Shown here: piece by piece, positions 45,409 through 49,986 of the stretch
Layout of the letters: each line of letters begins with the position of its first letter
Numbering within the stretch: the stretch's first letter is position 1
Assembly (NCBI GenBank): GCA_014764515.1
Contig: JACXWD010000007.1
Location: 1-64,000 of the forward strand
DNA from: Candidatus Polarisedimenticola svalbardensis
GTDB taxonomy: Bacteria; Acidobacteriota; Polarisedimenticolia; Polarisedimenticolales; Polarisedimenticolaceae
Length of the DNA: 64,000 bases
Direction of reading: 5' to 3'
Notes under the pieces: generated by a model
Databases searched by the model: none
What the model was told of the DNA's origin: nothing
The model's input: the letters and a program-made list of their open reading frames with translations, nothing else
Position numbers and translations under genes: made by a program

Positions 45409-45443
45409 TACTGCACGGATAACACCACAAAGGAGGAAGCGCG

Positions 45444-46202
45444 ATGATCGCCGAAGGCACCAAGGCGCCCGGGTTCACCCTCAAGGATCACCTTGGGCGG
45501 GAGATTTCCCTGGACAGCCTGACCGGCAAGCACCATGTGATGCTGCTGTTCTACCCTCTCGATTTCACACCGACGTGAAGCAATGAAGTGCCCGAAACGG
45601 AAGCCCTGCTTTCACGTTTCGGAGCAGCCAATACCCAGGTTCTGGGTATCAGTATCGACAGTGTTTTCTGCCATGCCAACTGGGCTGTGAGCATAGGCGG
45701 GATTTCCTTCCCGCTGCTGGCCGATTTCCATCCCAAGGGCGCCGTTGCCTCAAGCTACGGCCTGTACCTTGAAGGCGCCGGAATCACCGATCGGGCCACC
45801 GTGATCATCGACGCCGGCGGTACGGTGCGGCACAGCTCCTCGGTCACACCTGGTGGCCGTCGGGATATCGGCGAACTGGCCGCCCTGTGCGAGAAGGTGG
45901 ACAAGGAATACAGCGGCCCGAAACAGGCCGTGCCGGCTCCAGGTTCCTTCCCCGGCGGATCCACGCTGTTCGTCAAATCATCCTGCGGACACTCCCTGAA
46001 GGCTCTGAACGCCAGGGCGAACTTCCACCTGGAAGGCGCCATCACTCTGAAGAACGTGAGTGAAGACGCCGCCGCCATGGCCGAACTCAAGCAAATCGGT
46101 GGAAAAGACCAGGCGCCCTGCCTGGTGGTGGACGGCAAGCCGATGTATGAAGCGGATGACATCGTCAAGGCGATGGTCGATGTAGTACCGTACTTGAAAT
46201 AA
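45444..46202 (+). CDS. Selenocysteine-containing peroxiredoxin (AhpE-like) fused to a glutaredoxin-like domain
   Basis: 252 aa if the UGA at 45576-45578 is read as selenocysteine (residue 45). ATG 45444 follows a strong AGGAGG. Before the UGA the frame encodes GFTLKDHLGREISLDSLTG and MLLFYPLDFTPT; after it SNEVPETEALL. Thus UGA stands exactly at the peroxidatic position of the peroxiredoxin motif PxxxTxxC. The domain continues FPLLADFHPKGAVASSYG, then AGITDRATVII, close to 1-Cys AhpE-type enzymes. Residues about 168-252 form a glutaredoxin-like domain (C181 in SSCGHS; C226 in APCLVV). It should reduce peroxides in the cytoplasm. Restarting at GTG 45588 would remove the active site. A SECIS-like hairpin follows the UGA. 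Confidence 0.9.
45589..45626 (+). promoter_or_regulatory. SECIS-like hairpin directing selenocysteine insertion
   Basis: Begins 11 nt after the UGA. Lower stem CCGAAACG (45592-45599) with CGTTTCGG (45615-45622); TGC/GCA extends it with one bulged A. Upper stem GAAGC (45600-45604) pairs with GCTTTC (45608-45613), leaving a bulged U and a 3-nt apical loop. Bacterial SECIS elements bound by SelB lie within the coding region just 3' of UGA and have an upper stem with a bulged U near the loop; here the bulge falls on the 3' side. Confidence 0.72.
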
Positions 46203-46266: not shown

Positions 46267-46371
46267 GTTCAGTTTCCCCCTGCCGCATCCTGGGGTAACA
46301 TTCAGGGACGCTTTTCCGAGGGGGATGGCCGCCACCGTGTTTTAGCCCGACGGTGGAGTCAAAGGTTGTTC

Positions 46372-49300
46372 ATGATCGATTCGCGGATCTCCCATTTCCG
46401 GATCACCGGAGAACTGGGTCAGGGCGGCATGGGGGTGGTCTACCGTGCGGTAGACGAAAACCTGGGCCGCGAGGTCGCCCTGAAAGTGCTGCGACCCGAT
46501 TTCATCGGCGACGAGGACCGGCGCCAGCGTTTCCTCATGGAAGCCCGCACCGCCGCCAGCCTGAACCACCCCAACATCGCCACCATCCATGAAGTCGACG
46601 AGACCGATGGCCAGATCTTCATCGCCATGGAACTGGTGGAAGGGAAAATGCTCAGCTCGGTGATCGGCGACCAGCCGTTGACGCCGACGGAATCGATCCG
46701 GATGGGGATCGAGATTTCCGAGGGCCTGGCCAAGGCCCACGCCGAACAGATCGTCCACCGGGATCTGAAACCGGAGAATGTCATCGTCACCCCGGACGGT
46801 CATGTCAAGATCCTGGATTTCGGACTGGCCAAGACTTTCCAGCTGCCGGGACAGGCCGCACCCGGCGAGGATCACAGCGCCGACAACACCGTCTCCCTGA
46901 ACATTACCGGTGAGGGACGGATCCTGGGCACCGCCGCCTACATGTCGCCGGAGCAGGCCCGGGGCCGCCAGTTGGATACCCGGTCCGATATTTTCTCCTT
47001 CGGCGTCATGCTGTACGAAATGGTTACCGGCAAAAGCCCGTTCAAGGGCGAGACGGTCACCGACACCCTGTCCTCGATTATTCGCGACTCTCAGCCTCCC
47101 CTGGTGGATTCGGTACCGGAAGCGCCGGCGGAACTGGAGCGGATCTTGGGCAAGTGCCTGGAGAAAAGTCCGGCCGACCGCTACCAGCACACCGACGAAA
47201 TCTCCGTCGATCTTCGCCATCTGAAACGACTCACCGACTCCCATTCCCAGTCCCTTCCGCTGGTGACCCATTCCGGCATAAGTGCAAAGCATGACGGCTG
47301 GAACACGCGGAGAACCTGGCTGATGGGAACACTGGCCGTGGTGGTTCTGGCCGGCGCCCTGATCATCCCCAGGCTGCTCGGCCCATCGGCGCCGACGCCT
47401 GCACTGGTGGTGACGGTGGAGAACTCCCTGGCGGTCCTGCCGTTCGAGAATCTTTCGGACTCTCCGGAATCCGACAGGGTCGGACAGATCCTCCAGGAAT
47501 TGATCATTACCGACCTGTCCGCTTCCGGCTCCCTGAAGGTGTTCAGCAGCCAGCGCCTGTTCGATCTGCAGAAGCAGCTCGGCCGGTTCGACAGCCGAAC
47601 CATCGACCGCTCCCTGGCCACCCAGGTGGCCCAGCTGGCAGGCGCCGGGACCATGCTCACCGGTTCCCTGAGCCGCCTGGGAGATCGCTGGATCATCACC
47701 GGCCAGCTGATCGATCCGGAAGACGGCACGATCCTGAAATCGGAACGGATCGACGGGGATGACCTGTACGCCATGGTGGACATCCTGACCGCCAGCATCC
47801 GCACCGACATGGGGGTGATCCAGGCTTCGAACCTGGGCGGCGACCTTCCGGTCGGCGAAAGGACATCCCAGTCCATGGAGGCGTACAGTTCCTACCTGGC
47901 CGGCGTAGATCACCTGAACAACATGGAATACTTCAAGGCGGTGGAAGAGCTGGAAGAAGCGGTCCGGATCGATCCTGAATTCGGTCAGGCGATCTACAAG
48001 CTGGCCATCGCCCGGTGGTGGAGCGGCAGCCTCATGAAAATGGGGAATGAGTTCCCCGGGGTGGAAGCAGGAATCGCCTTGCAGGAACAGCTGGACAGCG
48101 ACATCAAAATGCCGGAACAGGACCGCGCCCTGGTGGAGGCTTTCATCCCGGTGGTGGAGTACCGCTATGACGATGCGGTGCCGTTGTTCCAGGAACTGGT
48201 GACACGCTATCCCGAAGAAAAAGAAGCGTGGTACGGGCTGGGTGAAGCACTGTTCCACCAGTCCCCGGACCGTGAGAACCGGGACTGGGCGCTGAAATCG
48301 TTTGAAACGGCAGTGCGGCTGGACCCGAAGTTCCGCCTCGCCTACCGCCACATCATCGACGTCTACAGCTCTACCCAGGAATACGACGCCGGGATCCGGA
48401 AGATCCGCAAGTACATACAGCGGGACCCCGGCAACCCGGCGCTGCCGCCGGCGCTGATCGGGATGCTGATCGCAAGGGGTGACCTGGACGAGGCCTCGGA
48501 AGTGGCGGATGCAACCCTGGCCGGACTGGACGATCCTGCGGAACGCCAGTTCCTTCTGCTGACAATCGGAAAGTCGTACAACCACCAACACATGACCGAA
48601 GATGCGCTGGAATCGTTCCGGCAGGGGCTGGCTGAACCGGTGGACGACCATCGGGTCGACCTGCTGCTGGCCAACGCCAACATGCAGGTCCATCTGGGTG
48701 ACTATCGAGCCGCAGGGAAAGCGCTGGACAAGGTTCTGGAATTGAGCCCGGATCACGGTGATGCCTGGACCATGCGTGTGGAACTGGCCGCTTCGGAAGG
48801 TCGGATCCCGGATGTCCTTGACGACGCCCGTGCGAGGGCGATGGAGAACCGGGCCAGCGGCGGCGCCGGTCTGGCCTGGATGCGGGCCGCCATCCTTTCC
48901 GGCAACGATGATGCCATTCAGGAGGTGGGGACCGCTTTCAAGGAGTATCTCGACAATCCGGACCTGCCCGGAGACGCCAGGGTGCGGGCCCTGGCCGAAT
49001 CAGCCGGTGTCCACGAGAACGCCGGCCATGTCATCCAGGCCCGTGAACTGCTGGAGGAAGCCCTGGAACTGGCTGCGGACACCTACCGGCCGAACCTCCT
49101 GAACGAACTGGCCATGATGGAGGTCCAGCACGGGGGCCTTTCTTCGGCGAGACGGCACTACGCGGAACTGGCCTCCACCGGCAAGGAGATACCCGGTTCC
49201 CTCCTGGGGCGGGGCTGGCTGGCGGCCCTTGAAGGAAGACATGAAGACGCGGCGGTGCTGGTTCGCAAACTGACCTCCCAACTCCCCGAGCCTTCCGAAC

Positions 49301-49986
49301 GGGCCCGGTGGGAAGCGGATATCGTTCTGCGGTCCGGACGGTTGGATGAGGCCAGGGTAATCATCGAAAACGCCCTCGACGAGACCCGGACCGAACCGCT
49401 CCGTCGCAGGCTCCTGATCCAGGCCGGGCTGTCCTGGACGGCGGCCGGCCAGGACGAAGGCGCCGGCCGGTTCTTCCGCCAGGCTCTGGAACTGGACAGA
49501 ACCCACCCGTTCCCGGAGGGTGAAGCCTGGATGGCGTTCTGGGAACTGCGGGCCGGCAGGAATCAGGATGCAATCCGGCGTTTGAAAGCCCTGGACCACG
49601 CCAGCGCGGATGGTCCCGACCCGGTCCTGATCCTGGCCGCCGCCGAAGCGGCCATGGGCCAGCCCGCCGCCGCGCGCAAGCGCCTGGAACGGAGTCTGGA
49701 TACTGGACCGGTAACCCGGGAAACCTGGCGGACCCTGGGCCTGGTCTGCGGCCGCCAGGGCGACTGGCAGGCCGCACGGAGTTACGCCGAGAAGGCGTTC
49801 GCCCTGGACGACTCGGCGCCGGTGGCTGCCATCCTGGCCTGGGTGCTGGTAGCCGGTGATCTGGATCGTGTCGAAGGGCTGCGCCTTGCCAGGGAGGCTG
49901 CCGGGAAGCCGGAAGGGTATTTCCAGCAGGTCATGGTGCTCCCCGGTTTCCCGACTCCGGAATCGGTCCTGGCGCTGAGTAACTAG
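46372..49986 (+). CDS. Membrane-spanning Ser/Thr protein kinase with TPR repeats
   Basis: 1204 aa from the ATG at 46372 (AAAGG 6 nt upstream; TTG 46366 is an alternative). Kinase domain residues 8-270: glycine loop GELGQGGMGVVY, Lys38 (ALKVL), HRDLKPEN with Asp131, DFG Asp149, and GTAAYMSPEQARG. One TM helix at about 315-335. The outer part begins with a TolB/FlgO-like module (SLAVLPFENLSDSPESDRVG, about 350-480) and then carries about 15 TPR-type helix pairs to the end. This layout is common in Acidobacteriota. The catalytic residues are intact, so an active kinase is predicted; ligand and targets are unknown. Overlaps tatD by 4 bases at the end. Confidence 0.93.
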   Translation: MIDSRISHFRITGELGQGGMGVVYRAVDENLGREVALKVLRPDFIGDEDRRQRFLMEARTAASLNHPNIATIHEVDETDGQIFIAMELVEGKMLSSVIGDQPLTPTESIRMGIEISEGLAKAHAEQIVHRDLKPENVIVTPDGHVKILDFGLAKTFQLPGQAAPGEDHSADNTVSLNITGEGRILGTAAYMSPEQARGRQLDTRSDIFSFGVMLYEMVTGKSPFKGETVTDTLSSIIRDSQPPLVDSVPEAPAELERILGKCLEKSPADRYQHTDEISVDLRHLKRLTDSHSQSLPLVTHSGISAKHDGWNTRRTWLMGTLAVVVLAGALIIPRLLGPSAPTPALVVTVENSLAVLPFENLSDSPESDRVGQILQELIITDLSASGSLKVFSSQRLFDLQKQLGRFDSRTIDRSLATQVAQLAGAGTMLTGSLSRLGDRWIITGQLIDPEDGTILKSERIDGDDLYAMVDILTASIRTDMGVIQASNLGGDLPVGERTSQSMEAYSSYLAGVDHLNNMEYFKAVEELEEAVRIDPEFGQAIYKLAIARWWSGSLMKMGNEFPGVEAGIALQEQLDSDIKMPEQDRALVEAFIPVVEYRYDDAVPLFQELVTRYPEEKEAWYGLGEALFHQSPDRENRDWALKSFETAVRLDPKFRLAYRHIIDVYSSTQEYDAGIRKIRKYIQRDPGNPALPPALIGMLIARGDLDEASEVADATLAGLDDPAERQFLLLTIGKSYNHQHMTEDALESFRQGLAEPVDDHRVDLLLANANMQVHLGDYRAAGKALDKVLELSPDHGDAWTMRVELAASEGRIPDVLDDARARAMENRASGGAGLAWMRAAILSGNDDAIQEVGTAFKEYLDNPDLPGDARVRALAESAGVHENAGHVIQARELLEEALELAADTYRPNLLNELAMMEVQHGGLSSARRHYAELASTGKEIPGSLLGRGWLAALEGRHEDAAVLVRKLTSQLPEPSERARWEADIVLRSGRLDEARVIIENALDETRTEPLRRRLLIQAGLSWTAAGQDEGAGRFFRQALELDRTHPFPEGEAWMAFWELRAGRNQDAIRRLKALDHASADGPDPVLILAAAEAAMGQPAAARKRLERSLDTGPVTRETWRTLGLVCGRQGDWQAARSYAEKAFALDDSAPVAAILAWVLVAGDLDRVEGLRLAREAAGKPEGYFQQVMVLPGFPTPESVLALSN

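Follow-up and report, generated by a model that had tools for sequence, protein, structure and literature searches.

Peroxiredoxins with selenocysteine (Sec) in a TxxU motif form an established family, as documented in the available parts of three selenoprotein catalogues (PMC13188914, PMC2398784, PMC1794560). A Prx-PP2C-like fusion is described in the accessible portion of the GOS selenoproteome (PMC2398784), and the accessible text of the same three catalogues (PMC13188914, PMC2398784, PMC1794560) contains no fusion of a Sec-peroxiredoxin with a glutaredoxin. The available part of a 2006 list includes three Sec peroxiredoxins in Anaeromyxobacter; since some of these may be of the type described here (Sec-AhpE/Grx), members of the family have probably been counted before, with their architecture unnamed. 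Fusions of a peroxiredoxin with a glutaredoxin were found by a 2009 survey to be limited to Proteobacteria and to the CPYC class of glutaredoxin (PMC2679010). Finally, the glutaredoxin-like protein mycoredoxin-1 acts on the sulfenic acid of Mycobacterium tuberculosis AhpE, reducing it directly or after mycothiolation, according to the available text of a review (Hugo 2014, cited in PMC4360819).

The window analyzed here is a 64,000-nucleotide stretch of a draft genome of Candidatus Polarisedimenticola svalbardensis, which comprises 3.69 Mb in 180 contigs and has an estimated completeness of 100%. Inspection of the frame at 45444-46199, closed by a TAA that extends to 46202, revealed a sole internal stop, the TGA at codon 45 (Table 1). 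A Pfam AhpC-TSA match (residues 5-130, E 6e-32) runs unbroken across this codon, and a Pfam Glutaredoxin match above cut-off follows at residues 174-232 (E 5e-6). Full-length homologues with 52-67% identity are present in other phyla. The only part of the gene retained in a standard ORF list is 45588-46202 (204 aa). The first-pass annotation had described a single UGA with peroxiredoxin sequence on both sides, had placed it at the peroxidatic position, and had foreseen the 204-aa misannotation; all of this held, and TGA is conserved in homologues at the position following PLDFTPT. The adjoining gene (window 46366-49986) encodes a large Ser/Thr kinase whose C-terminal region is TPR-like.

Table 1. 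Coordinates of features at the Sec-AhpE/Grx locus.
Feature	Position in window	Strand	Basis or remark
Shine-Dalgarno sequence AAGGAGG	45430..45436	+	7 nt 5' of ATG, read directly from the sequence
Predicted Sec-AhpE/Grx selenoprotein gene	45444..46202	+	252 residues, TAA stop; open frame with one TGA
AhpE-like peroxiredoxin domain, residues 1-150	45444..45893	+	Pfam AhpC-TSA; AhpE is the best PDB sequence and fold match
UGA codon, predicted selenocysteine 45, peroxidatic position of PLDFTPT-U	45576..45578	+	TGA conserved in the clade
Candidate bacterial SECIS hairpin, bulged stem, apical loop ~26 nt past the UGA	45589..45626	+	RNA fold
Glutaredoxin domain, residues 174-232	45963..46139	+	Pfam Glutaredoxin above cut-off
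Cys181 codon (motif CGHS; CGFS in many homologues)	45984..45986	+	Alignment A1
Terminator-like hairpin, 27 nt past TAA	46229..46262	+	Pattern scan; ~1 such site expected by chance in the region

To place the N-terminal domain, a 19-row alignment of fused proteins was used as a profile against PDB sequences. M. tuberculosis AhpE was the best match (E 1.7e-36), followed by 2-Cys peroxiredoxins (6e-29). A fold search with an AlphaFold model (mean pLDDT 82.5; prediction poor at residues 95-115) likewise returned AhpE (1xxu) as its first match; the Haemophilus influenzae Prx5-Grx hybrid (1nm3) was in the first 20, with full-length coverage and 19% identity. P38, T42, and R117 are invariant in the 19 fused proteins, which have no conserved resolving Cys in residues 1-150, position 45 alone being invariant among the possible redox residues there. 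The proposed assignment to the AhpE-like 1-Cys type, apart from the PrxU type, is therefore borne out, AhpE being the nearest solved relative by both sequence and fold and the NCBIfam PrxU model (NF040737) scoring 69 bits, far below its cut-off of 270.

None of the described systems coincides with the window protein, and none of the NCBIfam models (June 2026) reaches its cut-off on it. The H. influenzae hybrid also has a peroxiredoxin followed by a glutaredoxin in one chain, but its peroxiredoxin part is of the Prx5 type with Cys. The glutaredoxins of the fusions surveyed in 2009 are of the CPYC class, whereas the site in the window family is CGFS/CGHS (PMC2679010). PrxU of Eubacterium acidaminophilum and the 'Prx' of the GOS and prokaryotic lists, as presented in the available parts of those sources, resemble the window protein in their UGA-encoded Sec, peroxidatic PxxxTxxU, and AhpC/TSA fold; the window protein differs from PrxU in being AhpE-like and in its C-terminal glutaredoxin domain. 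M. tuberculosis AhpE shares 35% identity, a single peroxidatic residue, and a glutaredoxin-like reductant (mycoredoxin-1; available part of PMC4360819), but has Cys instead of Sec, a separate partner protein, and a mycothiol system. The C-terminal domain also resembles UXX-star selenoprotein family 1 (distant Grx-like protein 1, NF041114; E 0.026), but its 14.8 bits are far under the 72-bit cut-off, and the Grx-like site has Sec in NF041114 and Cys in the window protein.

The C-terminal glutaredoxin-like domain of the first-pass annotation can be refined to one with a monothiol, CGFS/CGHS-like site. Pfam found the domain in 18 of 19 homologues; the site, as read from the alignment, is CGHS in the window gene, and most homologues have CGFS or CGxS. 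Of all Cys and Sec positions in the 19 fused proteins, U45 and C181 alone are invariant (alignment A1); Cys residues 76, 149, and 226, the last of which follows the cis-Pro, vary. Three arrangements occur in the clade of Sec-containing relatives. AhpE and Grx are fused in 25 rows, including the window gene; Sec-AhpE stands alone in a Planctomycetota/Krumholzibacteriota subclade and in two further Planctomycetota members (L029, L031); and in a SAR324-type subclade (e.g., L033, L034) a CGFS-type glutaredoxin is encoded by its own gene directly downstream of Sec-AhpE. Such a pattern, fused in one group and encoded side by side in another, usually marks two parts that cooperate; the members without a glutaredoxin domain indicate that a fused partner is not obligatory.

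We propose the following mechanism. The UGA would be read as Sec by the SelA, SelB, SelD, and tRNA-Sec of the genome, with the downstream hairpin probably serving as the SECIS element. Sec45 would attack a hydroperoxide and be converted to a selenenic acid, which Cys181 of the fused glutaredoxin domain would reduce directly; alternatively, a low-molecular-weight thiol would first form a mixed selenenyl-sulfide at Sec45, to be reduced by Cys181. The glutaredoxin domain would then be recycled by a small thiol or thioredoxin. Peroxidase chemistry at Sec45 is predicted from its position, and the relay from Sec45 to Cys181 is, in our estimate, moderately probable. Such a relay in cis is the most economical scheme; mycoredoxin-1 reduces AhpE in the same manner in trans. 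Of genes for small-thiol synthesis, the genome has two GCS2 (GshA-like) matches whose role is uncertain; a GshB-like match was discarded as a RimK-type ligase, and a search for BshC in the genome found none.

The strongest alternative accepts the Sec-peroxiredoxin but not the glutaredoxin domain as its reductant: free thiols or thioredoxin would resolve the selenenic acid, and the CGFS-like domain would have another role, such as sensing or the binding of an iron-sulfur cluster. Glutaredoxins of the CGFS type are, as a rule, iron-sulfur proteins and weak reductases, and some members of the Sec clade lack the domain, as noted. Against this stand the invariance of C181 in the 19 fused proteins, the occurrence, in a sister subclade, of both domains as neighboring genes, and the glutaredoxin-like nature of the known AhpE reductant. 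We therefore regard a non-reductant role of the domain as unlikely, though deserving of attention, and retain the relay through Cys181.

To trace the UGA codon, relatives were collected from one genome per species. Of the 80 obtained, the nearest ca. 35 all have TGA at the codon aligned to residue 45, and TGC or TGT is restricted to more distant single-domain proteins. A search of 396 genomes of the phylum yielded nine full-length fused genes, each with a single TGA, and no Cys version in any of these genomes; a tenth gene, in G089, is represented by two partial matches located on separate contigs, of which the N-terminal match has a TGA. In a maximum-likelihood tree of 98 peroxiredoxin domains, all 42 proteins of the Sec clade (support 100/99) have UGA at codon 45, and Cys occurs in the outgroups. 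The first-pass annotation had proposed aligning homologues at this residue. The clade comprises Acidobacteriota, Planctomycetota, Myxococcota, SAR324, Krumholzibacteriota, and one Pseudomonadota MAG. As most records are MAGs, individual taxonomic assignments may be in error. The gene thus has an in-frame UGA, homology on both sides of it, and alignment of this codon to Cys in homologues, as selenoprotein genes do. Separately, one Cys protein (L119, genome G018) sits in a subclade of the phylum whose other members have Sec and may reflect a Sec-to-Cys change, and in two genomes of the same order that have SelB (G001 and G002) only distant Cys-type AhpE proteins without a glutaredoxin domain (L104 and L105) were found.

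These data bear on the view that the UGA is a genuine stop, leaving a pseudogene or a downstream 204-aa product without the active site. While the fragment given by standard ORF calling agrees with it, the invariable presence of UGA at this codon across dozens of species from several phyla, with the protein conserved on both sides, and a good ribosome-binding site 5' of the long frame make it very improbable. A TGC or TGT turned into TGA by sequencing or assembly error is conceivable in a 180-contig draft, but is contradicted by TGA at the equivalent codon in independent assemblies and is hardly credible. Nothing was found in support of a genome-wide reassignment of UGA to an amino acid (code 4 or 25 type), which is just as implausible given the TGA stops and the full Sec system of the genome. 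All three explanations were rejected.

The decoding genes, the search for which had also been proposed, are all present. SelA is encoded at C74:17659-18753 (E 1.8e-122) and SelB on contig C143, which also carries tRNA-Sec with anticodon UCA (C143:84218-84312; 73 bits versus a gathering score of 47, with ARAGORN in agreement). SelD (contig C54, E 2e-109) itself contains a UGA, located at its catalytic position (CAG-U-ASK). SelB was present in all 10 genomes examined of the order. Of 38 long ORFs in the window with little mutual overlap, 19 end in TGA; UGA is therefore no reassigned sense codon. From the conserved UGA and the decoding genes, we infer that the codon is decoded as Sec in vivo.

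The RNA after the window UGA folds to -18.9 kcal/mol. In 50 Sec genes, the downstream RNA was more stable than synonymous shuffles (mean z -1.33, versus -0.4 to -0.7 for control segments from the same genes), while that of 29 Cys relatives had no excess stability over synonymous recodings (mean z -0.26). The difference between Sec and Cys genes gave a Mann-Whitney p of 3e-4, an optimistic value, since it is uncorrected for the phylogenetic relatedness of the sequences. A strict SECIS rule (hairpin <= -5 kcal/mol) was satisfied by 60% of the Sec clade versus 34% of Cys relatives; with few bulges allowed, it found no convincing hairpin in the window gene, and an Rfam search returned nothing relevant. 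RNAalifold found no common structure over 37 aligned downstream regions, and a SECIS can therefore not be claimed from a shared fold. Lack of shared structure is not unusual among bacterial SECIS elements. A hairpin placed by hand (columns 19-26 paired with 30-37) was rejected: it fits a subset, 54% of cells pair family-wide, and a slide by +3 is nearly equal; in one relative (L027), double changes keep two of its pairs. We conclude that a SECIS directly downstream of the UGA is likely, being supported statistically but not proven.

Taken together, we assign a probability of ca. 0.9 to the reading of the gene product as a 1-Cys-type selenoperoxiredoxin of the AhpE lineage joined to a monothiol-type glutaredoxin, with a Sec system of its own genome, a probable SECIS, and, at the lower likelihood given above, C181 as the relay residue.

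Other UGA peroxiredoxins were also observed. A second peroxiredoxin-like gene of the genome (L096, G000:C54:14138-14449, minus strand) has an in-frame UGA (GYW-U-PFC), lies head to head with the Sec-containing selD, and, read through the UGA, matches Pfam AhpC-TSA with E 6e-30. A third (L097, G000:C168:7237-7644, minus strand; FTGG-U-T) has an apparent signal peptide and a Pfam AhpC-TSA match with E 1.5e-27. Since the window gene, SelD, and both of these carry UGA, the genome has at least four predicted selenoproteins. Among the loci L071-L090, which include Chloroflexota ones, single-domain Sec peroxiredoxins with the motif FTGG-U make up a clade of their own in Chloroflexota/Dehalococcoidia.

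We give about even odds to a wider proposal, that of a self-sufficient selenoperoxidase found in several phyla, in which the AhpE part would always be a selenoprotein, the selenenic acid would be resolved in cis by a CGFS-type domain, and truncating annotation would have caused the family to be missed. The CGFS class of glutaredoxins is not known for coupling to peroxidases. The annotation gap is a general one: where UGA is taken as a stop, the active site is lost, and because gene callers halve such genes, the Sec-AhpE/Grx family is easy to miss. With both redox sites in one chain, recycling of a 1-Cys selenoperoxidase becomes directly testable. The family adds a conserved selenoprotein architecture, for which a Cys version was not found, in phyla whose use of selenium is little studied.
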